This document shows, one piece after another, positions 13,947 to 63,700 of a stretch of DNA of 64,000 nucleotides (position 1 is its first letter; each line of letters begins with the position of its first letter). This DNA comes from a virus. The position numbers and the translations under genes are program-made. The stretch covers positions 124,001 through 188,000 of IMG/VR virus record IMGVR_UViG_3300027847_002834. One strand, 5' to 3'. A model generated the notes under the pieces. That model was not told where the DNA came from. It did no database searches and saw only the letters and a program-made list of their open reading frames with translations.

Positions 13947-15179
13947 CTATAGTTGTAATAATCTATTTATTTTTTCGTGTGCCTGTTCAAAATCAATATT
14001 ATTGAAACAAGGGGACATTCCATTATCATTAAATGGACATGGGGTATGACCATGTAAACAACAGTATCGCCCACCATAACTACATACATCACTTGGCTTA
14101 GGTTCTATGTAATCAACATTATCATATAAACTAACTCGTATATGACCAGGAAATGGACCATACAATGAAAATGCAGGAACCCCCAATGCAGCAGATAAAT
14201 GTACAAACGATGAATCTGGTGTTATAACCATTTTAGAATGGGCTATAATACTAACAGCAATAGCTATCGTTGAACTTAACTTTGATATGTTATATACATT
14301 CTTTCTTAAATCAGGAGGGATAGTTGCTTCAATAAACTTATCCATCTGTTCTTTTAAATCTGGTCTGTCAACTATGACTATAGTTCTACCTTGTTCTAAT
14401 AATGGAGTTAAAATATTCTTCCAGCATAGCAATGAAGGAGTTCTAATAGGTGACGAAGCTCGTATCTGAACTCCTATAAATTCACCTGCGGTTATACCCA
14501 TCTCTTTCAGTTTAGCAGCTACAATGTCGTTATTTTCAGTTTTAGTGTACTGTATGGGTTTTAATTCATTATCCGGTATATCAAGTCCCATCCACCTTGA
14601 AAATAGTTTATATGCATTTACTTTCTTAGCTTCATTGCATCGCTCTATGACTCCTTCAAATGTTACATGATAATCTGCTTTCTGAAAGTAGTTATAATCA
14701 ATTGGTAGGTGGACCAACTCATCTATACATTCCCAATTATCAACTAATGAAAAGTAATTAGGAGCACACGAGAAGATTATGTGACAGCTAGGATATTTCT
14801 TTTTGAGATAGTATAGATTAGGCTGGATAAACATCAAGTCACCTATTCCTCCAGTTCTCCACACCAATATTGATTTGTTAGTTAAATCTTGTCCATTGTA
14901 TGGACGATATATATCTTTGAATTTAACCTTGGAAGGTTCTAAACATTCATCCCCATTAGGATCTTGTTTTAATCTATCATACAAATAGATAGACATTACC
15001 TTTGATGTTCCTTTTGTGAATTTATGCTTTGCAAATCTATCTATTGAAAATTCAAATGTGACTTTAGATGTTCCTATAACCATACCTGGGGTAGATTTTC
15101 GCAACTCTTCAATATTATCATACATAGTAGTAACATCGCTATGGACAATACCTAACTCAGTTAATAATTTAGGATCCAA
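13947..15179 (-). CDS. Glycosyltransferase family 9 (heptosyltransferase-like)
   Basis: The 410-residue protein has an extra N-terminal region (about 1-100) and then the GT9 core: ILVWRTGGIGDLMFIQP at 104-120 (the family's 'R..GiGDvl...P' motif), GEFIGVQIRASSPIRT in the middle, and ITPDSSFVHLSAALGVP followed by FSLYGPF at about 318-342, the donor-binding motif of ADP-heptose:LPS heptosyltransferases. It would transfer heptose or another sugar to an acceptor that cannot be named. Cys-rich residues near the end (CSYGGRYCCLHGHTPCPF) may bind metal. An RfaE2-like enzyme that could make an NDP-sugar is encoded at 25692. Confidence 0.85.
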   Translation of the reverse strand: MDPKLLTELGIVHSDVTTMYDNIEELRKSTPGMVIGTSKVTFEFSIDRFAKHKFTKGTSKVMSIYLYDRLKQDPNGDECLEPSKVKFKDIYRPYNGQDLTNKSILVWRTGGIGDLMFIQPNLYYLKKKYPSCHIIFSCAPNYFSLVDNWECIDELVHLPIDYNYFQKADYHVTFEGVIERCNEAKKVNAYKLFSRWMGLDIPDNELKPIQYTKTENNDIVAAKLKEMGITAGEFIGVQIRASSPIRTPSLLCWKNILTPLLEQGRTIVIVDRPDLKEQMDKFIEATIPPDLRKNVYNISKLSSTIAIAVSIIAHSKMVITPDSSFVHLSAALGVPAFSLYGPFPGHIRVSLYDNVDYIEPKPSDVCSYGGRYCCLHGHTPCPFNDNGMSPCFNNIDFEQAHEKINRLLQL

Positions 15180-16724: not shown

Positions 16725-19700
16725 ATGTATAAAATTACCAGCAGTCATGCTGATTGTAACAATTGCGAATTACTAGATTGCGCGTCCGCCACATCTGATA
16801 CCAACTGCAAGGATAACTTAAAGTCAGTAAACGTATTTATTGTTTCAGAAAATCCAAGTAAGGAAGATACCATCGGGGGGACATGCCTAGGTATAACATA
16901 TCCACCCGGAACCCCATTGATAGGCAAAGGTGGAAAATTATTCAGGGAAGTATTTAATGATACAATTATCCCTTTAAATATTAATTATTTTATTACAAAC
17001 ATGGTGTTGTGTCATAGTACGAAACCAGATGAATCTCCACAATCAAAGATTGCACATACAGAACATTGCAAACCAAACATGTTAAAAATGTTAGAGGTAT
17101 GTGAACCTGATTTAATCATTTCATTAGGCGCAAATCCAATGAAAACATTTGGTATTCACGGAGGAGTAACCAGTAATAACGGAAGAATGTTTTCATACAC
17201 ACACGAAGGAAAACAATATCCAGTATTAGTTGCAACTTCCCCTAATTATATTGACAAGAAAGGTGGACTGAACTCTGAAGCTGGAGATGAATTCATATTG
17301 GCATTTAAAAATGCAGCAGCATTCTTAAATGGAGAGGAAATAGACGATGGGGCCGAAGAATCAGAAGGCCAGAAACATTTATTCAATATTGATCCTAAAT
17401 ATTACAGCGAAGATTACAGACTTGTAGATATTCAATATATCGCAAGACAACAAAAATTGATATTCATCTTTAGAGATAAAGATAATAATAAAATCTTCTA
17501 TGAACAAGATCAACAAGATAAAAACTACTACTGGTACACTAATAATTCAGAGGGAAAGTTAATTGAATCATTTGAAGATTTAACTCTTAGAGTTGGCAAT
17601 TATAAGCAACGTGGATTAACCAGTAACTGCTATGAATCAGATATTAGACTACCTGAAAAACATGCAATAGATTATTATATCCAATCAAAAGGAGAATGCA
17701 GTATTGAAAAACAAAATATTTTATTTTTTGATATTGAAGTCTATACTTATGACTATAAGGGTTTTCCTGGCGTACAAAAGGCCGAATGGCCAGTAAATGC
17801 TATTTCGTTTGCTTTAGATGATGACGATACAGAGATGTACCTTTACCATATTGAAGGGAGAATTGATTCACGGATAGAAGACGAAAAAGATAAATATCCA
17901 ACTTTAAAAATCTTCAAAAGTGAAAATCAAATGTTAGAAGCATTTATAAAACGTATTCATGAATTGGAACCAGATTATATTGTTGGATGGAATAGCATCC
18001 GTTTCGATATGAGTTATTTATATCAACGAATGATGAACATAAAAGTCAAGTTCAACAATATGTCCCCCTTCAAAAGTACATGGGTAGATGCAGAAAAGGG
18101 AAAATGTGATGTAACGGGTTATATATGTTATGACATGTTACAGTTATACAAAAACTTAACATATATAAATGAGCCTAGTTATAAATTAGATAGTATTGCA
18201 CAAAAGGTACTCAAGACTAATAAAATAGAATACACTGGCAGTTTAAATCATATTTATGAAAATGATATTGCGACATTCTTAAAATATTATGCGACTGACA
18301 CGGATCTTCTAAAAGGTCTTGATAAAGCATTAGGTCATGTTGCATTACAAGACGAGTTGAGACGAGCAGCAACAACAACTCACCATGGAGCAAATTCTAC
18401 GACTGGACTTGCAGATGGGTTATTCAATTATGCATTGAAGACTGATGGATATGTAATGAAGAATTCCAGTAAGGGTTATAAAGAATCTATTATAGGTGCA
18501 TATGTAAGAGATCCAATAGGTGGAGTATATGATTGGGTAATTGATTTTGATTATACTAGTTTGTATCCATCTATCATCTGTTCATTTAACATTGGACCGA
18601 ATACATGGTTGGCTAAAATCAATCCAACGTTGGCACACGATTACACCTATAAAACAGATGAAGTAACCGATAAGACGTTTGACATAACACTTGATCCCCT
18701 GTATAACCCCACAGTTGAACAATGGTCCTATGACACGTTTACAGCGTTTATAAAGGAACGTAATGCCATTATAACCCCATCGGGTTGCATATTTAAAAAT
18801 CACACAGAAGAGAAATCTATTTTCTATAAAATCATCAAAACCTTATTCCAAAAGAGAAAGGAATATAAAACCTTGATGTTTCAGTGTAAAGAATCTGGAG
18901 ATTCATCAAATCAACAGATCTTTGATAATAGACAAATGGCATACAAGATTTTATTGAATAGTTTATATGGCGTTTTGGCACAAGAATACTTTCGATTTTT
19001 TAATCTCGATTTAGCATCAACTGTTACATTATCAGGTAGAGAGTTAATTAGATTTGCTGGAGAACATGTAGATAATTGGATGATAGATGATACTAATACT
19101 GATATTAACTGTAACTTCAATGAAGATGTAGATAGTCAGAAGGAGTATTTCAAATATGCAGATACTGATTCAGTATTCTTGCACGTTCAGCCTTATTTAG
19201 AAAAAAAGGGGCTTCCTGTTGACAAGGAAACAATCGTAGATGAAGCATTAAAAATTCAAACGTATCTAAATATCGAATTACTTCCAAGATATGCAATAAT
19301 TCATAATATTGATCCTGTTGAAAGTATGTTTGAGTTAAAAAACGAATTGATATGTAGACGATATTACACGTTGAGCACTAAAAAGAAATATGCTTTACAT
19401 GTAGTTGTAAATGAAGGAGTAGATACAGATGAGGTTGATATTAAAGGTCTAGAAATAAAACGATCTGATTATTCAGTGTTAACAAAAACAATGTTAACTA
19501 AAATATTAGATATGATTATAAGACCTGAAGGTCAACCAGATATTGATAAAATATTAGATTACGTTAGTGAGACTAAAACGTATGCAACTCAGTTAGCTAT
19601 TGATGGCAATGCTGATTTATTCAAGAAAGTATCATTCAACAAACCATTAGAAGAATATAAAAATACTCCTCAACACATCAAAGGTATGTTAATATGGAAT

Positions 19701-19991
19701 GCTCTAGAATATGAGTATTTCCAATTAGGTAGCACAGGTATCTTATATCCTCTAAAATCATTTGAATTATTTAATGCACCAGATGAGATTCAAGATAACT
19801 TCCAGAATTTATTTCTAAAGAAGTTTGAGCAAAAGGATTTAGATGTTATTGTTCTCCCAGAGGACGTTGATTCATTACCTGATTACTACGGAGTAGATGT
19901 AAATAAAATTGTAGATTTTTCAGTTAATGATCGTGCTGATATATTATTGGAGCCACTAGTCAAAAAGACAGATGACTTATTATTATGGTAA
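16725..19991 (+). CDS. Family B DNA polymerase with N-terminal uracil-DNA-glycosylase-like domain
   Basis: A 1088-residue fusion. Residues about 1-210 resemble family 4/5 uracil-DNA glycosylases: paired cysteines CNNCELLDC for an Fe-S cluster, VSENPSKEDTIGG then PLIGKGGKLF, and TNMVLCHSTKPDE. The usual HP motif is SP here (ATSPNYI), so glycosylase activity is doubtful. The rest is a proofreading PolB: exonuclease motifs DIEVYTYD (about 335), IVGWNSIRFDMSYL and YYATDTDLL, then motif A DFDYTSLYPSI (about 605), motif B KILLNSLYGVL (about 742) and motif C YADTDS (about 811). No intein interrupts it. The domain pairing suggests the polymerase senses uracil in template DNA. Confidence 0.9.
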   Translation: MYKITSSHADCNNCELLDCASATSDTNCKDNLKSVNVFIVSENPSKEDTIGGTCLGITYPPGTPLIGKGGKLFREVFNDTIIPLNINYFITNMVLCHSTKPDESPQSKIAHTEHCKPNMLKMLEVCEPDLIISLGANPMKTFGIHGGVTSNNGRMFSYTHEGKQYPVLVATSPNYIDKKGGLNSEAGDEFILAFKNAAAFLNGEEIDDGAEESEGQKHLFNIDPKYYSEDYRLVDIQYIARQQKLIFIFRDKDNNKIFYEQDQQDKNYYWYTNNSEGKLIESFEDLTLRVGNYKQRGLTSNCYESDIRLPEKHAIDYYIQSKGECSIEKQNILFFDIEVYTYDYKGFPGVQKAEWPVNAISFALDDDDTEMYLYHIEGRIDSRIEDEKDKYPTLKIFKSENQMLEAFIKRIHELEPDYIVGWNSIRFDMSYLYQRMMNIKVKFNNMSPFKSTWVDAEKGKCDVTGYICYDMLQLYKNLTYINEPSYKLDSIAQKVLKTNKIEYTGSLNHIYENDIATFLKYYATDTDLLKGLDKALGHVALQDELRRAATTTHHGANSTTGLADGLFNYALKTDGYVMKNSSKGYKESIIGAYVRDPIGGVYDWVIDFDYTSLYPSIICSFNIGPNTWLAKINPTLAHDYTYKTDEVTDKTFDITLDPLYNPTVEQWSYDTFTAFIKERNAIITPSGCIFKNHTEEKSIFYKIIKTLFQKRKEYKTLMFQCKESGDSSNQQIFDNRQMAYKILLNSLYGVLAQEYFRFFNLDLASTVTLSGRELIRFAGEHVDNWMIDDTNTDINCNFNEDVDSQKEYFKYADTDSVFLHVQPYLEKKGLPVDKETIVDEALKIQTYLNIELLPRYAIIHNIDPVESMFELKNELICRRYYTLSTKKKYALHVVVNEGVDTDEVDIKGLEIKRSDYSVLTKTMLTKILDMIIRPEGQPDIDKILDYVSETKTYATQLAIDGNADLFKKVSFNKPLEEYKNTPQHIKGMLIWNALEYEYFQLGSTGILYPLKSFELFNAPDEIQDNFQNLFLKKFEQKDLDVIVLPEDVDSLPDYYGVDVNKIVDFSVNDRADILLEPLVKKTDDLLLW

Positions 19992-20502: not shown

Positions 20503-20651
20503 CTAATAAGATAGTTAGATCTGTTTATAAATCGAAAGAACAAAAAAACGAGGATCGATTATTTGGAATTAGGATACTCTACCATAATACGATAGTATCA
20601 TTGGAGACTAATCCATTTCAAGTCTCATCCTTCCCTATAAGGGATGAGTAG
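20499..20651 (+). CDS. Small hypothetical protein (50 aa)
   Basis: The ATG overlaps the stop of the preceding gene in an ATGA arrangement and opens a 50-codon frame starting MTNKIVRSVYKSKEQKNEDR. It is basic at the start. The coding end lies inside the terminator hairpin region. Translational coupling supports it; function unknown. Confidence 0.5.
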   Translation: MTNKIVRSVYKSKEQKNEDRLFGIRILYHNTIVSLETNPFQVSSFPIRDE

Positions 20652-20690
20652 TGATCATATTAATAATACTAATATTGATCACTGCCTTTT
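20650..20690 (+). terminator. Rho-independent terminator
   Basis: A strong hairpin with AGTGATCA (20650-20657) pairing with TGATCACT (20676-20683) and an inner TATTA/TAATA extension, then GCCTTTTAA. A second overlapping hairpin (CTCATCC/GGATGAG) lies just upstream at about 20623-20648. Confidence 0.8.
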
Positions 20691-20769
20691 AACTCTCAAT
20701 AGTTTTTGGGGTTCTAACATAACATAACATAAGAATAATTAATTGAAGTTAAGGAGATTTTATAGTCCT

Positions 20770-21465
20770 ATGAGACTAATTGGGTATTCAAGTGGGGCAC
20801 TAGCTAAAGGGAAATTCAACGTTGCAATTGATATGTTAAATAAACATAAAAATGTTACAGCAATTGAATTATCCGCTCTATTATACTCTGAACTAAAAAC
20901 ATTAATAGATGCAATTCATACATTAAATTTATCAAAATATGAATACATATCCATACATGGTCCCAAATTTGAAAATGAAACAGAGGAAGAAATAACAGTA
21001 GAAACATTACTTCCTCTAATAGATTTAAATTGGAATATTATATTACATCCAGATGTGATATGTGATATTAATAAATGGAAAGTATTTGGGAAATTACTAT
21101 GTATTGAAAATATGGATAATAAAAAATCATTTGGCCAAACAGCAGAAGAATTACAAACCATATTTGAAGAGTTACCAGATGCGTCAATGTGTTTCGATAT
21201 AGGCCATGCCTTTCAAGTAGATCCTACAATGAAAGAAGCAAAGAAAATTCTATGGATGCACGGTCACAGATTACAAGAAATTCATATGAGTTATGTAAAA
21301 CCAGATGGTAGTCATAATCCTTTATCAGTTCAATGTTACAAGCAATACCAATTAGTAGCTAGATATATAACAGAAGATATACCAATAATATTAGAATCTG
21401 GAATAGAAGCTAATAAAATACAAGATGAACTTAAAACCGCTCATAAGTATTTAAAAATAAAATAA
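20770..21465 (+). CDS. Xylose-isomerase-like TIM-barrel protein
   Basis: The frame is open from a TTG at 20743, but the ATG at 20770 (MRLIGYSSGALAKGKFNVAI) is the more natural start and has an AAGGAG 13 bases upstream. The protein of about 231 residues has the repeating beta-strand/helix order of sugar-isomerase or AP-endonuclease-2-like barrels: YISIHGPKFE, NIILHPDVI, LLCIENMDNKKSF, MCFDIGHAFQVD, LQEIHMSY and IPIILESG. His, Glu and Asp at strand ends would form the usual metal site. Substrate unknown; endonuclease IV-type DNA repair and sugar isomerisation are both possible. Confidence 0.7.
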   Translation: MRLIGYSSGALAKGKFNVAIDMLNKHKNVTAIELSALLYSELKTLIDAIHTLNLSKYEYISIHGPKFENETEEEITVETLLPLIDLNWNIILHPDVICDINKWKVFGKLLCIENMDNKKSFGQTAEELQTIFEELPDASMCFDIGHAFQVDPTMKEAKKILWMHGHRLQEIHMSYVKPDGSHNPLSVQCYKQYQLVARYITEDIPIILESGIEANKIQDELKTAHKYLKIK

Positions 21466-21471
21466 ATCTAA

Positions 21472-21503
21472 TCTTTTAACTTTTAAAAGAATGTTTTTAT
21501 TTT
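21472..21503 (+). terminator. Probable rho-independent terminator
   Basis: TCTTTTAA (21472-21479) pairs with TTAAAAGA (21483-21490), followed by ATGTTTTTATTTT. It closes the TIM-barrel gene just before the structured non-coding region. The stem is all A-T except one pair, so efficiency is uncertain. Confidence 0.5.
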
Positions 21504-21504
21504 A

Positions 21505-22062
21505 AATAAGAACAACAAACAATTGCTACAATGGTATGTTGAATATTATTCTCAAGTCGTTAGACAATTCAACAGTAAATAGTCCTAAGCAATCAATGGA
21601 TGTCAGTTTTTTTAGTTCCGAAAGGAACTTAGGATGTTTCTGGCCTTGGAAATAATCACCCAAGTATTAAAACCAAAAAAATAACCTGAATAAATAGGCC
21701 AAAGTAATTTCTATCGGGTCAGAGAAAGATTCGATGCGTCAGCTTTAATTCCTGCACTGAAAATCAGATGGAAGGTCAAGTCATTTTAATCGGATGGTGG
21801 CGCGATCGGAGGGAGGGCGTAGCCCTCCGATTAGCCCAAGTTCAAATATCCTATTAACACCTGAAGATTAAATATTAATCAAATAATCAAGCAAAAACAG
21901 AAGAGCGCGGAACGCCAGTGGATGTGCCTCTACTGGAGCTAGAAGTTCAGAAAGAATCCAATTAAAGGGGAAAAAAAGGAAGTTAATTAAAGAGAAATTC
22001 GTCAAGATCCAAGTGCCCCAGGAAGGCAGTCCTGACGGACAGCTTCCCTCCTAGGTCTCAGA
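21505..22062 (+). ncRNA. Candidate large structured non-coding RNA (about 560 nt)
   Basis: This stretch has no convincing reading frame and is richer in G+C than its surroundings. On the plus strand many helices can be drawn: GTTGAAT 21538/ATTCAAC 21567; AGTTCC-GAAA-GGAACT 21614-21629 capped by a GNRA tetraloop and stacked on CCTAA 21584/TTAGG 21629; CTTGG 21645/CCAAG 21660; ATCGGAGGG 21805/CCCTCCGAT 21823; CCAGT 21916/ACTGG 21933; and GGAAG 22021/CTTCC 22043 around GTCC-TGAC-GGAC. Size and phage context resemble the ornate ROOL and GOLLD RNA classes, but I cannot confirm either. Exact ends and strand are inferred. Confidence 0.6.
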
Positions 22063-22066
22063 TAAA

Positions 22067-22405
22067 TCAATATTCTTTGATTTCTTCTTTCAATTGAATA
22101 TTATTAGATTGTGAGTTAATAACCTTTTGAACCCTTAAGATTACTAACTTCTGACAGATTACAAAGATGACAATTAATAATATTTCAAATGTAATCTTCT
22201 TCCATGTATAAATATCAAAGATACAAGTTAAGATAATCAATGAAAGGGATATAAGTGACAACCCCATTACATATTTAAATATTATCAATCCTATAAATTC
22301 TTTTTTAATTGTAAATGGTGAAGGGATAATATCCCATCCAACTGTAAAAGTTGATACTCCCATTAATATGCATCCTACTGCAAGAAAAAGAGTTAAAACA
22401 TCCAT
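22067..22405 (-). CDS. Small membrane protein (112 aa)
   Basis: A 112-residue protein with three to four hydrophobic helices: about residues 2-22 (DVLTLFLAVGCILMGVSTF), 37-60 (EFIGLIIFKYVMGLSLISLS running into LIILTCIF) and 72-90 (FEILLIVIFVICQKLVIL). The C-terminal tail is Gln/Glu/Lys-rich. It is on the minus strand beside another small membrane protein. Holin-like or superinfection-exclusion roles are possible for such proteins; nothing specific is visible. Confidence 0.65.
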   Translation of the reverse strand: MDVLTLFLAVGCILMGVSTFTVGWDIIPSPFTIKKEFIGLIIFKYVMGLSLISLSLIILTCIFDIYTWKKITFEILLIVIFVICQKLVILRVQKVINSQSNNIQLKEEIKEY

Positions 22406-22585: not shown

Positions 22586-22930
22586 TTAAGTTACGAGGTT
22601 AAATATTATTAATGATATAAATGATATAATTACATATCCAATAGAAGCCTGAAATGCAGGTTCGCTTTTTCTAATAGTTGAATCATGATATGTTGCACCA
22701 GCCAGAAATGCGAATCCAATAGATATGATATGAGACATAAAAATAATTACAAATGATACTATCTTTAAGGGATAAATTATCATTGCAAGTATGACGAGTA
22801 CCACACATGCTGTATTTGTCCCTTTTAATTTTTCAGTGTTTGATTGGTATAAATATCCAGCTGTTGCAGAACACCCAACTGATACTATTACTAATACCAT
22901 AGTGATAAGTAAAGATGATAAAATAATCAT
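22586..22930 (-). CDS. Small membrane protein (114 aa)
   Basis: A 114-residue protein starting MIILSSLLITMVLVIVSVGC, with hydrophobic segments at about residues 1-25, 42-68 (VVLVILAMIIYPLKIVSFVI then IFMSHIISIGF) and 92-112 (ASIGYVIISFISLIIFNLVT). The first segment ends in a Cys (SVGC) that could be a lipobox, though a transmembrane helix is likelier. Minus-strand neighbour of another small membrane protein; possible lysis or host-envelope role, not provable here. Confidence 0.65.
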   Translation of the reverse strand: MIILSSLLITMVLVIVSVGCSATAGYLYQSNTEKLKGTNTACVVLVILAMIIYPLKIVSFVIIFMSHIISIGFAFLAGATYHDSTIRKSEPAFQASIGYVIISFISLIIFNLVT

Positions 22931-23406: not shown

Positions 23407-24384
23407 ATGTCAATTGAATCTGATGCATTAGATTCGTTATGGGTCGAAAAACATCGTCCCAAGGAACTAGCTGAAGTAGTACTAGAAAAGGAACATCAAG
23501 ATAAAATAGAAGAATGGTTAAAGAAAGGGGCGATTCCTCATTTATTAATGGTAGGTCCAGCAGGATCAGGTAAGACCACCACCGCTAGAATTATATGCAA
23601 TTATATTATTAAGGATGATGCAGATATTTTAGAACTGAATGGTTCTGATCAAACTGGAGTAGATACTGTTAGAGATTCTATTAAAGGATTTTTAAAATCT
23701 CCCCCACATCTTAGTGCTCATAAAATAGTATTCATTGATGAGTTTGATTATATGTCCCAAAATGCACAAGGTGCACTTAGAAATATATTTGAGACATATG
23801 CAGGCACAGGCAGATTTGTATGTACGGGTAATTATAAATCAAAGATCATAGATGCATTACTATCAAGATTTCAAATTTTTGAGATGAAAACAGTATCTCA
23901 AGAGTTTGCGATTAAATATTGTCAAAGTATTTTAGATTTTGAAAAGATAGAATATGATATTGATACGGTATCGGTTATTGTTGAAAGTCTTATTCCTGAT
24001 GTTAGAAAGATTGTTGGTACATTACAACAAACCGTAATAGATGGAAAGCTACACAAGATTGATAAAAATTCTATAGCTACAGCCGAGAAAAAACTAGTAG
24101 GGTTAATCTGTATGATGTTAGACTCTATTGGAACTATTGGTTGTAAAGAAATAGTTAATTCTAGTATTGTAGAAGTACATGAATTATTAAATCAAGGAGA
24201 GGTAGATTATCTTTCTATTTATGATTTATTATTTCATAATAAGAAGATTCCAGTATGGGCGAAGATCGTTGTAAATAGATATAGTAATATGCATTATCAA
24301 TGTTTATTTCCGAACATGCATTTTGTTGCAATGGTTTATGAGTGTATACAGAATGGTAAGAAATATCACGAAACATTTGAATAA
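23407..24384 (+). CDS. Sliding-clamp loader subunit, gp44/RFC-like
   Basis: A 325-residue AAA+ ATPase starting LWVEKHRPKELAEVV within its first 30 residues, the canonical RFC/gp44 opening. Walker A GPAGSGKTTTAR is near residues 51-62, Walker B is FIDEFDYM near 115-122 and the SRF-type sensor/arginine-finger motif appears in DALLSRFQIFEM. It opens the sliding clamp and loads it at primer-template junctions. The start has an AAAGGAAA ribosome-binding site. The small subunit (gp62) is not recognised in the window. Confidence 0.92.
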   Translation: MSIESDALDSLWVEKHRPKELAEVVLEKEHQDKIEEWLKKGAIPHLLMVGPAGSGKTTTARIICNYIIKDDADILELNGSDQTGVDTVRDSIKGFLKSPPHLSAHKIVFIDEFDYMSQNAQGALRNIFETYAGTGRFVCTGNYKSKIIDALLSRFQIFEMKTVSQEFAIKYCQSILDFEKIEYDIDTVSVIVESLIPDVRKIVGTLQQTVIDGKLHKIDKNSIATAEKKLVGLICMMLDSIGTIGCKEIVNSSIVEVHELLNQGEVDYLSIYDLLFHNKKIPVWAKIVVNRYSNMHYQCLFPNMHFVAMVYECIQNGKKYHETFE

Positions 24385-24407: not shown

Positions 24408-24746
24408 ATGATTAAAACTATACAAGAACGATTAAAGAACATAGAAGAAATAAAAGATACAGTCTCAGAGTTTGTTGAGGACTTAAATACTGTGATGGGA
24501 GAACCAGTTTTTTCCCATGAATCAGATATTGTATATTATAAAATATCTAATATAAAAACTCCATTATTAGAAGTACATATTATGACAAGTAGGCTTGATG
24601 GTTTCCCTGTTAAACTTCATTGTGAAATAGATACAAGATTAGGATTCAGTGCTGAATCCGTTGAGGAATTGGAATCTAATTTATCTATGTTTTCAAATCA
24701 ATCGGTTATTACTGAATTGTTATCTAGAATTAAATCTAAACTATGA
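24408..24746 (+). CDS. Hypothetical protein between clamp loader and primase
   Basis: A 112-residue protein with a helical start (MIKTIQERLKNIEEIKDTVS) and a central beta-like part (LLEVHIMTSRLDGFPVKLHC). It has an AAGGGG ribosome-binding site and is ATGA-coupled to the primase gene. The replication context suggests an accessory function; no family is recognised. Confidence 0.65.
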   Translation: MIKTIQERLKNIEEIKDTVSEFVEDLNTVMGEPVFSHESDIVYYKISNIKTPLLEVHIMTSRLDGFPVKLHCEIDTRLGFSAESVEELESNLSMFSNQSVITELLSRIKSKL

Positions 24747-25780
24747 ATATAGACAATCTTAGAAAGCTAATAAAAGATAAAAAATTATGGGTAAAGGAAA
24801 CTACTAAAAATATAATATGCATATGCCCTTATTGTGGTGATCACAAAGATGATAGAAAAAAAGGACATTTGTATGTTAGTAAGAATCCTGAAATTCCAGT
24901 GGTTCATTGTTTTATTGGGGGATGTGCTAAAGGATTAGTACAATTTATTGAAGATATTTCAGGTTCAAGAGTTGCTGCTGATTTAATCATTTCTAAAGAA
25001 GAAGTGAATAAAGCAAAAAAGAAGTCTAAATCAGAAGGAGCAGTACAAAAAAATCAAGATGTATATGATATACCTAAACTCGACATTAAACCATTTCCAA
25101 TGAAGGTGTCACACATCAAAAAAAGAACTAATGGTAATTTGACACCTGAACAGGTACCAAATCTTATTTTTGATTTTCAAACATTCTTTAGTATGAATAA
25201 TCTTGGAAGTGTAGTTGAAAATGAAGTTGGGGAATTTTTAACTACCCTGCAACGTCAATATGTTGGATACTTAGTTGAAAATCAATCATATATAGTATGT
25301 AGAAATATTGATCCTAAATCTGAATTTAAACATAGAAAGATTATGATCAGAGAACGGAATTTTGGATTATTGGATTACTACAAAGTAGATGGGGGTAATC
25401 CTGATAGTGATAAAATTGTGTTAGCAGAAGGAGTTTATGATGTATTGGGTGAATATTCAGCCAACTCATTAAAGTACAAAGGCAATGTTAGATTATATGC
25501 ATCTGGACAATCGTATTCTTATGCATCATTACTTAAAGCTGTTTTATTTGACGAATGTTTATGTAAAGCAGATGTTGTTATTTTAAGTGATTCTAATATC
25601 AGCACCCCATTTTATAGAAAATTATTAACTAACTATAAGCACGTTATAAAGAATTTAAAAGTGTTTTATAATAAAAATAAAGGAGGAGATTTTGGAAGCT
25701 TCCCACTCGCACCTGTGGAACTCAGAGTACAACCATACAAAAAATGGAATGGCTCTACAAATAAACAATATCGCAGATAA
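24743..25780 (+). CDS. DNA primase, gp61/DnaG-like
   Basis: A 345-residue primase. The N-terminal zinc-binding domain has ICICPYCGDHKDD (Cys28/Cys31) and VVHCFIGGC (His-Cys...Cys near 53-60). The TOPRIM part shows KIVLAEGVYDVLGEY with the catalytic Glu, RLYASGQSYSYASLL and VVILSDSNI with the metal-binding Asp. It would lay down RNA primers on the lagging strand with the DnaB-like helicase encoded at 44131. The 3' end overlaps the RfaE2-like gene by about 90 bases if the TTG start of that gene is used. Confidence 0.85.
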   Translation: MNIDNLRKLIKDKKLWVKETTKNIICICPYCGDHKDDRKKGHLYVSKNPEIPVVHCFIGGCAKGLVQFIEDISGSRVAADLIISKEEVNKAKKKSKSEGAVQKNQDVYDIPKLDIKPFPMKVSHIKKRTNGNLTPEQVPNLIFDFQTFFSMNNLGSVVENEVGEFLTTLQRQYVGYLVENQSYIVCRNIDPKSEFKHRKIMIRERNFGLLDYYKVDGGNPDSDKIVLAEGVYDVLGEYSANSLKYKGNVRLYASGQSYSYASLLKAVLFDECLCKADVVILSDSNISTPFYRKLLTNYKHVIKNLKVFYNKNKGGDFGSFPLAPVELRVQPYKKWNGSTNKQYRR

Positions 25781-33228: not shown

Positions 33229-34923
33229 ATGATAATCTCTGAAATGTTCTATACTCTTCAAGGTGAAGGGTATTATTGTGGTGTTCCTTCTGTGTTCGTT
33301 AGGACCAGCGGATGCAATTTAAGGTGTTCTTGGTGCTTTTCAGAAAATACAGCAGTGGATACCCCAACTGGTGGAAAAAAAATAAAAGATTTAACTATAA
33401 ATGATGAGGTTTTAACTATAAATCCAGAAACTAATGTATTATCTACTGATGTAGTTATGGATGTATTAACCAGGTCGGTAGATATAGAATCTATGATTTG
33501 TGTAAAAACTAAAACAAAGAAATTCTTTGTAACTAAAGATCATCCATTTAAAATAAAAGGAAAAGGGTTTATAGAAGCTCAAAACTTGAAAGAATCGGAT
33601 ACTATAATTTCAGCTACATCAAATCAATTAAATTCGTATAGGATGAAAAATAATAATCCTATGAAAATAGAAAAGAATTTAAAAAAAATGATTGAAACTA
33701 CATCAAGAAGATTTAATTCTGGTGAAATAAAACCATATACACGGACAACTACTCAAAAACAAATCTGGAAAAAAAGGATGACAGAGAATAATCCTATGAA
33801 AAATCCAGAAACTGTTCTAAAACAATGCCAGAATACATTTAGAGGGAAAAGTAAATTAGAAGGACGGTTTGAAAAGTTTTTCGAAATTAATAATTTTCCA
33901 GTTAAATATACAGGTAATAATAAAAAAGTAGTTAGAAATAATAACAAATTGAGATTTCCTGATTTTTGTGTGGAAGATACATCAAAGGTTATTGAAATTT
34001 ATGATTCTACTATGGGATATTTAAATCCTAATGGTAGAAAAAAAAGAGATAAAGAGTGGGAAGATAATACTATTTCTTATTATAATGAATCTGGTTATTC
34101 TTGTATGGTATTGAATGAAAAAGATTTGAAAGATAAAAATAAACTTAAAACTCATGTAAGTGAATTTATTTTTAATGGTGAAGATGTTGTAGGTGTATCT
34201 CCCTTGAATGATAAACAGAAATCATTATTATATGGGAATAAACATATTACTAAAGTTGATGTCTACAATTTAACAACTAAAACTAATACATTTTTAAGTC
34301 AGGGATGTTTGGTTCATAATTGTGATACACCATATTCATCTTGGTGGACAGAAGGAGACAACCAAAGCCCTCAAGATATTATAGACTTAACGGACCAGTG
34401 GCGTCATGTAAAACACTTTGTTGTTTCTGGTGGGGAGCCTACTATCCAAAAGGATCTTCCTGAGTTAATAACATTGTTAAAAGACTTGGGTCATATTGTA
34501 ACGATAGAAACTAATGGGACTAAATTTGTAAAAGAAATGGATCCTCATTTATACAGTATAAGCCCAAAGACATCAAATAGCTATCCGATAGAAGGAGTAA
34601 AGACTCCTACTGGTAGTTGGGAAAAGGAATTGAGAATTCATACCCGTGGAAACAAATTAGATGCATTAACAGACTATATAAATAGTGGAATAGATTATCA
34701 AATAAAATTTGTAACCCAGAATGATGAAGATTTACAAGAAATAAAAGACATGATTGAAAAATATAGTATTCCTCATGATAGGGTATATTTAATGCCTGAA
34801 GGATTTACTAGAGAATTACAACAACAACGAACATCTGAAATTGCAGAGTTATGTAAGGCAGAAGGATTTATTTTTTGTCCTAGAATCCATATAGATATAT
34901 GGGGGGACAAACGAGGAGTTTAG
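33229..34923 (+). CDS. queE: QueE (7-carboxy-7-deazaguanine synthase) precursor containing an intein
   Basis: The 564-residue precursor is a radical SAM QueE interrupted by a 329-residue intein. The host parts join as SGCNLRCSW + CDTPYSSWW to give a typical QueE of 235 residues, including [26 protein letters not shown] and the C-terminal RIHIDIWG. QueE converts 6-carboxytetrahydropterin to CDG, the first 7-deazaguanine. The intein sits at the third cysteine of the 4Fe-4S motif (Cys36 of the precursor), so enzyme activity requires splicing. Together with QueC-like and DpdA-like genes it points to 7-deazaguanine in phage DNA. Confidence 0.92.
33334..34320 (+). mobile_element. Intein with Vsr/PD-(D/E)xK-like homing endonuclease
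   Basis: The element starts with Cys1 ([20 protein letters not shown], block A), has a block [16 protein letters not shown] and ends with a [20 protein letters not shown] terminus (blocks F and G), followed by Cys+1 of the extein. Its 987 nt are exactly in frame. The endonuclease part lacks LAGLIDADG motifs; instead it has NUMOD3-like NNPMK strings (twice) and [35 protein letters not shown] and [15 protein letters not shown]. That order resembles Vsr-like PD-(D/E)xK homing nucleases. It would insert itself into intein-free queE alleles. Confidence 0.88.
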
Positions 34924-60757: not shown

Positions 60758-63700
60758 TGGCTAGAAATCCAGACGATCCTAAAAAAACATTACATGGTCA
60801 CATTTATCTTCCCGATCTTGGAGAAAAGGGAACGGAAGCTATAACCAAATTTAATGATGCACAAGAAGACCTAGATGAACATATTAGAACTCAAGAAGAT
60901 AGATCATATGCACTACCTCCTGTTATTGCGTATGCACTAGATCCTCCAAATATTGAAGATCTATTTAGATTAGATTATCTTCCTAGTTGGCAAAATATTA
61001 GGGGATTATGGAATTTTAATGATGATAGTACAACTAATCATGCAGTTGATGTTAGTTTCTGTGGAACCTCAGGTGGAGCTAATTTTACAGGATTAGTAAA
61101 AGAGGATAATAACTGGTTCTCTGGCGTAGCTGAAGAATGGGATGGAGTTGAATGGGATGGAGTATTTAATAATCTTCCTGCTGAGTTAGAAGGTCCATTC
61201 TTGAGATGTGACTCAACTGAAGATTTCGCCGCTGAAGTTCCTGGCGTATTACATAATCCTGGAACTGGTTTTACTATTGATTTCTGGTTCTGTCCTACTA
61301 AAGATATAGATGGCACTACATATGACGGATTCACTTATCTATTTGCTAAAGTTAACTCTGCCCTTAGAAATGTAAACAATGTATGGATTTCAAATGAAAT
61401 CTTTATGGGGGTGTTTTCTGCAATTGATGGAAATCAGGGTGGTCAACTTGGAGTATTTACTCACAGATCACCATCCGAAGGAGCTCAAGTATATGCAGTT
61501 GATGATGCTGATCCTTTATATTCTGGAGTATATACTTTAGAAAACTCATGGGGGGCTGGAACATGGCATCATGTTACTATATCATGGGGAACAACTAATG
61601 GTCTAATATTATGGATAGATGGACAAACTGGCTGGGCAGGAAGTTCAGTTGGAACCGCAACTACAATGTATACTCCGGGAAGAAAACACAATCTAACAAT
61701 TGGTGGTTACTGGAGTGGCCCATCTGAAGCATTAAATAAACCCGATATGCTAGTTTCCAATTTAAGAGTTAGCAACACCGAAAGGGATCAATTGTATGTA
61801 GATACTGTATATGGGGGCGGAGATGGTTACACAGGCTCCTATGATAGCAATACAATCGCTTACATAAAATTTAATGAAGGGTCAGGCAAAGAGGCATACA
61901 ATTCAATTCCGCTTCAGTCAACCAATTTTCCTTCTTATGGTAATCCTGGAGTTGTAAAATCCGGAATAGTTTATCAAGCAGATAGAACCGTATTAGAAGA
62001 AGAAGGTCCAACTGGATCTGCATTATTTAATGATGACAATGAAGAATATCTTGATTGTGGAGCAGAACCACATACTAATCTTATTGCACATGAAACTAAA
62101 GTTGCAGGTGGATTCACATTTCAAACTGCAATAAAATTAAATGAATTAAACAAAGATCAATGTATCATTTCTAAATGGGATGAGTTTAATGATCAACGAC
62201 AATTATATGTTGGTATTGATTCTAATAATAGAGTAGAAGTAAAAATAGGATTAGATGGATTATATGATTCTACTGCAAGTCTTTCTTCTGATGTTGTCAG
62301 CTATCCATTTATAACAGTTGCAGATGCAGGATTAGATATAGCTAATGGAACATATGTTGATCAAGAAGGTTGGGAAGGTTTATCTCTAGATTCAACAGGA
62401 ATATATGATGGTGTTCCATATCTTAAAATGGAAAATTGTGAAGATCCTACATACAATGGGGAATTTGTAACTGAAGCTGATTGGGAAACAATTCACGGAA
62501 TAACCGATTCAACTCAATCATTTACAATTTCTAATGCGGGAGTGGATGATGTAAATGGAAGCTGGATGGATAAGACCAAACATGAAGAAGTATATCCACC
62601 TACTGGAGTAATGACTGAAACTAATTTTGATACATTCGATAGTACCGCATCGTTATACGAGGTAGTGATAACTGATATTAATGATGTAGTAGATGGAGTG
62701 TTTGAGTGGACCAATTTAACTGGAAGTGATGGCGTATCCATATGGGGTCGAGATTCAACTGCTGGATATGATTTATACTTATACAGAGAAAGTACTGGTT
62801 GGGTAATAAGAGATGGAACTACTGACACTGATAATTTATATTACTGGTTCCATAAGCGTCCAGGTGATAGATTGGACGTTCCTCCATCTCATTGGTTTGC
62901 TAGAATTAATGAACTTGATCAACAGCTAAGTATAGGTGCTGATCGTGGGCCAACTGCAGTAGTTAGAACAGTATCTGGTCAAATTGAAATTGATTCAGAA
63001 ATAAAAACAACTGTTACATCTGCTGGAAATGATTATTTTAATGGAGATTATCTAAGACTTGGAGAGACACTAAATGGTGTCGATATATGGTGTAGCACTA
63101 TACATGATGATGCATTAATTATATGTGATTATTTATATGGTGATACTGATTTAGCTGATGAATGGAAAAAATGGTGGATGGGTATTAGACCTAGAGATCA
63201 TGGATTTGGTGGATTTAGATATCATTTTTATGCCCCATATCAAATAACTGATATTGAAGATCAAGCTCCTCCTGCATTTCTTAAAGGATATACTGGATTC
63301 AATGCTCTTGGTGAATACATCGATGAATCAGGATCTGATGCAGCACAACTTAAAACTTATCTAGAAGATGGATCAAAATTTAATCCTGATCTAATTTGGT
63401 TTCATACGGTTGAAGGGGTTACTGAAAATATGTATCGTCATGAAGATGATGATTCTCTTATCTTAACTAAATTAAGATTGGATGGAATGACAGTAACTCA
63501 ATGGTATATGGCTCATTATACTGATTGGGATGAATTTGGATATTACTATACTTATCTATATGATAATGTAGCAGGATCTACAATTAAGGATATTCCGTCC
63601 TCATTCAATGGGATAGTTGACAATATTCCTATTCCTATTATTATAAAAAATAATAATAAGGAAAACTTTGTTTGGACTCAAGAAAGTCAACCTGTATGGA

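Follow-up and report, generated by a model that had tools for sequence, protein, structure and literature searches.

The stretch at window positions 21505-22062 is, on balance, probably an independently transcribed phage non-coding RNA gene of ~530-545 nt, read from the plus strand and with the RNA itself as its product. It probably represents a free-standing RNA gene because a promoter-like signal of the phage's own type precedes a stretch that contains no sizeable reading frame. Overall, it can be described as a plausible orphan non-coding RNA gene. The initial annotation had interpreted it as an ornate non-coding RNA possibly akin to the giant phage RNAs ROOL and GOLLD; the phage non-coding RNA gene is retained here, mainly on account of a 5' promoter motif that had gone unnoticed, and the proposed kinship with ROOL and GOLLD is not.

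The window, i.e. the whole 64,000-nt stretch of DNA analysed, corresponds to bases 124001-188000 of the 193,518-bp virus record IMGVR_UViG_3300027847_002834. This record is a large virus of bacteria (phage), with genes for a tail sheath, a large terminase and a type II topoisomerase. It also carries two sets of multi-subunit RNA polymerase genes, with β subunits of 1399 and 1019 aa and β' subunits of 1390 and 919 aa. Its 12 tRNA genes and its tmRNA gene are all found within the first 20 kb of the record (genome 2-19 kb), while the stretch is located at genome 145.5 kb and no tRNA gene was found in the window. The relevant genes are the following:

Genome 107291-117033 (L098 3292-13034), minus strand: RNA polymerase gene set.
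Genome 77305-83117 (L097 305-6117), minus strand: RNA polymerase gene set.
L005 17661-18073, minus strand: tmRNA gene with the tag AKTTSVETPILQFPGTVAYQVAA, adjoining the tRNA cluster.
Window 16725-19991, plus strand: family-B DNA polymerase with an N-terminal uracil-DNA-glycosylase-like domain.
Window 20770-21465, plus strand: TIM-barrel ORF of the AP_endonuc_2 type (Pfam PF01261, E 9e-8; earliest possible start at 20743), the upstream neighbour of the stretch.
Window 22067-22405, minus strand: 112-aa membrane-type ORF without family, the convergent downstream neighbour.
Window 22586-22930, minus strand: second small membrane-type ORF.
Window 23407-24384: clamp loader.
Window 24743-25780: primase.

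Several features of this genome and its relatives are worth recording in their own right. The fusion of the uracil-DNA-glycosylase-like domain with the polymerase is common to larger relatives at ~35% identity, whose neighbourhoods differ, and in relatives a QueE-like ORF adjoins the DNA polymerase. In the present window, the start of a 564-aa ORF (33229-34923, plus strand) resembles a QueE-like radical SAM enzyme, with what appears from its sequence to be an intein-like interruption after CSWC. Just 5' of the TIM-barrel ORF, positions 20561-20740 display strong local hairpins (z ~-4.3 on the plus strand and ~-4.1 on the minus strand). The cumulative GC-skew minimum is located at window 16539, where the minus-strand genes switch to the DNA polymerase, and marks a possible replication origin. 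Genes for tmRNA are also present in four related phages (G098 109075-109464, G092 167085-167470, G067 150325-150699 and G054 60857-61222).

The gap between the two convergent neighbours (21466-22066) measures 601 nt and is the second largest ORF-free gap of the 193.5-kb record, the largest one containing three tRNA genes. No ORF of at least 50 aa is found in it on either strand, in agreement with the initial annotation, the longest of its six short ORFs (22-45 aa) reaching 45 aa. None of these six is preceded by an SD sequence, compared with 74 of the 145 larger genes of the phage, and the translated frames of the stretch showed neither a match above chance to the PHROG families nor similarity beyond chance to the phage's own proteins. 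At 0.396, the GC content of 21505-22062 exceeds both the genome value (0.333) and the intergenic value (0.307), which confirms the GC-richer composition noted initially; equally GC-rich windows of 558 nt represent 5.1% of all such windows. The small membrane-type ORFs that the annotation had placed beside the stretch do adjoin it, on the opposite strand. In contrast, the terminator said to stand in front of it was not recovered, as the hairpin at this place consists of A and T only and was not reported by the terminator scan.

The evidence that bears most directly on transcription comes from the 5' edge of the stretch. Among the 8-mers found upstream of ORFs, AGAACAAA is conspicuous: 19 of its 31 copies lie at most 120 nt upstream of an ORF, a location expected for 7% of positions, which corresponds to an enrichment of ~9-10x in this phage genome (e.g., plus-strand sites at window 47245, 50528, 52588 and 60129). 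Once these 19 sites are aligned, an A is present at +13 in 17 of them and at +14 in 15, so that AGAACAAA with the A at +13 reads, from its core, AACA-(6N)-N-A. The association of this A with upstream positions is also seen for AGAACA sites, which present it in 23/31 cases upstream of ORFs vs 41/117 in coding DNA. Related phages are enriched for the motif upstream of ORFs as well (e.g., 16/29, 15/30 and 18/47 copies), showing that its use is clade-wide. The late promoter of phage AR9 is AACA-(6N)-TA/G, in which the last base is the transcription start, and is recognized by a multi-subunit polymerase of phage origin (PMC5312081, PMC9209446). The motif described here shares with these late (nvRNAP) promoters the AACA, the six bases and the start A, and a phage multi-subunit RNA polymerase is likewise encoded; it differs in its extended AGAACAAA core and in a -1 base that is not limited to T, and it is a candidate by sequence. 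A first motif search by EM was discarded, having drifted to purine-rich coding DNA. Sigma-70 promoters were about as frequent as in shuffled sequence. Two other words, ATATATAT and ATATATAG, are likewise enriched upstream of ORFs genome-wide and bring to mind the early promoter of AR9, AAATATATATTAT-(6N)-G.

The copy of the motif at the stretch and the elements predicted behind it are as follows:

21509-21522, plus strand: promoter-like motif AGAACAACAAACAA, with AACA at 21511-21514, six bases, then A-A.
21522-22055, plus strand: candidate non-coding RNA of ~530-545 nt with an uncertain 3' end; no ORF, GC 0.40, the motif at its 5' end and an opposite-strand gene next to it.
21522-21527/21588-21593, plus strand: helix of a predicted 5' domain, closing the hairpin 21537-21544/21567-21574 (MFE of a single sequence; pair probabilities 0.61 and 0.67).
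21614-21629, plus strand: GNRA-loop hairpin AGTTCC-GAAA-GGAACT (pair probability 0.96).
21630-21853, plus strand: predicted 9-bp long-range helix 21630-21638/21845-21853 around a central domain (pair probability 0.90; single sequence).
21805-21831, plus strand: 9-bp hairpin ATCGGAGGG/CCCTCCGAT, read from the sequence; the MFE prefers the overlapping pairing 21812-21818/21822-21828.
22020-22052, plus strand: GC-rich 3' hairpin AGGAAGGCAGTCC-TGAC-GGACAGCTTCCCTCCT, read from the sequence.

The copy at 21509 is a one-base variant of AGAACAAA, namely AGAACAAC, and its -1 base is A, not T. By itself, this variant is not enriched upstream of ORFs (1/7 copies), and the chance of an equally good match within the first 60 nt is ~1%, as estimated from base composition. 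The motif at 21509-21522 presents the AR9-like spacing and therefore predicts a transcription start at A21522, where the predicted 5' helix also begins. This start is followed by ~545 nt without ORF that end against the opposite-strand gene. Among 11 related records, only this locus combines the motif (including the A at +13), an ORF-free stretch of more than 500 nt behind it and, beyond that, an opposite-strand gene. At the other end, the terminator scan found no clear plus-strand terminator for the candidate RNA, and the hairpin 22020-22052 may equally be the 3'-end hairpin of the minus-strand gene 22067-22405; the minus strand gives the best local fold of this region (z -3.5).

The fold itself must be interpreted cautiously, being predicted from one sequence. 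The GNRA tetraloop reported in the initial annotation is indeed present, as the GAAA-loop hairpin at 21614-21629, and GNRA hairpins with a stem of at least 6 bp occur only eight times on the plus strand of the genome. The description of the stretch as ornate, with many strong helices, is not borne out: the MFE of 21505-22062 has a z of -1.61 (7 of 100 shuffles as good) and that of 21522-22055 a z of -1.27 (300 shuffles), while the latter interval contains 16 helices of at least 5 bp compared with 13.6 in shuffles, and eight well-supported helices compared with 8.6. The reverse strand folds equally well, and no 120-nt window within the stretch reaches z < -3.7, a value attained at dozens of other places of the genome. 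These measures are not diagnostic in either direction, since in our controls the ROOL of plasmid pMP118 obtained a z of -1.40 on its own strand, tmRNAs covered a range from -0.7 to -6.2 and coding segments one from -3.4 to +0.2, many of the latter folding at least as well as the stretch. As a genuine ROOL scores the same as the stretch, a structured RNA is neither favoured nor ruled out by fold energy. The z was not significant, and a thermodynamic proof of structure was rejected.

As to families already described, no Rfam 15 model, including those for group I/II introns, RNase P, tmRNA and riboswitches, reached its gathering score anywhere in the window. With lax filters (E<=10), the surroundings of the stretch yielded just two chance-level matches, both to unrelated families, AdoCbl-II (17.3 bits for a cut-off of 36.5) and DdR1. 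The scan with the ROOL and GOLLD models proposed by the initial annotation was negative. The ROOL model (RF03087; gathering score 99.1 bits) found nothing in the whole record at E<=10, and the same search recovered the pMP118 ROOL (130.4 bits, 543 nt) as a positive control. The GOLLD model (RF02032; cut-off 150 bits) likewise found nothing there at E<=10, with matches below the cut-off in five control genomes, a set from which a known GOLLD carrier is absent. Membership in ROOL or GOLLD is therefore rejected, the covariance-model searches being negative and the ROOL control positive. What persists of the proposed kinship is a likeness in size (and GC). Like ROOL, the stretch would be a non-coding RNA of a mobile element or phage, without protein product, of ~540 nt (543 nt in pMP118) or, taking the candidate limits, ~530-545 nt for a family length of ~550-600 nt, with a GC of 0.40 and a similar fold-energy z (-1.40 for pMP118 and -1.45 for the stretch); it differs from ROOL in lacking a covariance-model match, known relatives and nearby tRNA genes. 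With GOLLD it would share being a large phage non-coding RNA, and it differs in having no model match, in being shorter than the usual GOLLD and, again, in not being near tRNA genes. Indeed, ROOL and GOLLD often adjoin tRNA islands (PMC12286853).

Further parallels may be sought in orphan phage transcripts of unknown function, such as the long non-coding RNA of phage ICP1, an ORF-less transcript of ~800 nt (PMC7567579), and lnc001 and lnc002 of phage K, also long and ORF-less (PMC9241854). The stretch resembles them in being orphan, long, ORF-less and located in a lytic phage genome; in contrast, those RNAs were proven by RNA-seq, whereas the present one is predicted from sequence. No sequence kinship of the stretch with any phage record was found.

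Homologs of the stretch were not retrieved by blastn or nhmmer in phages, plasmids and more than 100 related IMG/VR records, a collection that possibly lacks records very near the window. The relatives were found in IMG/VR via the DNA polymerase, the RNA polymerase and the clamp loader, and blastn and nhmmer were then run on loci and whole records. Single-protein searches gave no relatives; a segment of the β' subunit as query led to the clade. This includes one same-species fragment, which ends short of the region of the stretch, and records at ~50% amino-acid identity, in which the stretch is absent. The matches obtained in relatives were short or at chance level, and the best-looking one, between the 5' end of the stretch and G053 at 90269, was discarded as it falls within a coding gene. 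Similarly, exact-motif scans of viral_contigs and genome_contigs gave match numbers at chance level, and the large gaps in relatives that could be counterparts of the stretch were no more similar to it than expected by chance; at least two of these gaps, in G067 and G054, are read as missed coding sequence. Two other elements were seen. One is a region of 1.4 kb at L386 2305-3738, AT-rich, free of ORFs and with strong hairpins, located 4-6 kb upstream of the clamp loader in a related phage record of 183 kb; it has no match in Rfam. At L295 ~14400-14560 (G075 74400-74560), tRNA-like ends (GTGAGTG ... GTAGGTTCGAATCCTACTCACTCAC) flank an insert of ~90 nt, an element recognized neither by ARAGORN nor by Rfam.

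The main rival to a non-coding RNA gene is a simple spacer between convergent genes, where the stretch would be the 3' untranslated DNA of both neighbours with 3'-end hairpins on each side, and the motif at 21509 a chance match. The convergence of the flanking genes speaks for it, as do the GC-rich hairpin, which closely follows the stop codon of the minus-strand gene and folds best on that strand, the ordinary fold energy and the lack of conservation seen among the related records searched. Nevertheless, a spacer of 601 nt would be long for this densely coding genome, whose only larger gap contains tRNA genes; the GC content clearly exceeds that of the remaining intergenic DNA, and a promoter motif of the type used in the clade is directed inward from the 5' edge. 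We consider this spacer a serious though rather unlikely explanation.

The same motif could instead drive the 39-aa ORF at 21536-21655, the stretch then being either the message of a very small protein with its leader or what is left of a decayed gene, and the remainder 3' untranslated sequence or relic. The ATG of this ORF is indeed located 27 nt behind the motif, a usual distance among the genes of this phage, but no SD sequence precedes it, whereas half of the larger genes have one. Moreover, the translated frames lack a family match and any above-chance similarity to the phage's own proteins, and 400 nt would be left unexplained. This possibility is considered improbable. A DNA element, e.g., a replication origin or a recombination site, would be consistent with the location of the stretch within a region of replication genes and with hairpins able to act as DNA elements. 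In contrast, both the cumulative GC-skew minimum and the change of gene direction fall at ~16.5 kb, 5 kb off, and iterons are absent from the stretch. A replication origin at this place is thus rejected, the GC-skew minimum being elsewhere, and a DNA element of any kind appears very improbable.

Returning to the non-coding RNA gene, the RNA would be made in the infected cell by one of the two multi-subunit RNA polymerases that the phage encodes, starting at the AR9-like promoter 21509-21522, and the transcript could fold into the predicted multi-helix form. It may then act in a free-standing manner, like the long orphan RNAs of phages ICP1 and K and like ROOL and GOLLD, for which such a mode has been proposed: as an abundant, stand-alone RNA that is self-assembling or protein-binding. 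If the stretch is such a gene, a scaffold or assembly RNA may be somewhat more likely than a base-pairing regulator. ROOL has conserved kissing loops and assembles into a nanocage. More tentatively, and with considerable doubt, the stretch could be the first example seen of a novel family of large structured phage RNAs with no kinship to ROOL or GOLLD, synthesized by a multi-subunit RNA polymerase of the phage at an AR9-like promoter and perhaps assembling in the manner of the nanocages.

Giant phage RNAs form, to our knowledge, few classes with striking structures and no known function. The clade-wide promoter motif provides a handle for predicting transcription units in this uncultured group of large phages. 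If the proposed gene is real, a further, unrelated giant RNA in a phage carrying its own RNA polymerases would help to establish whether such RNAs have originated more than once, and to date the production of giant RNAs within infection.
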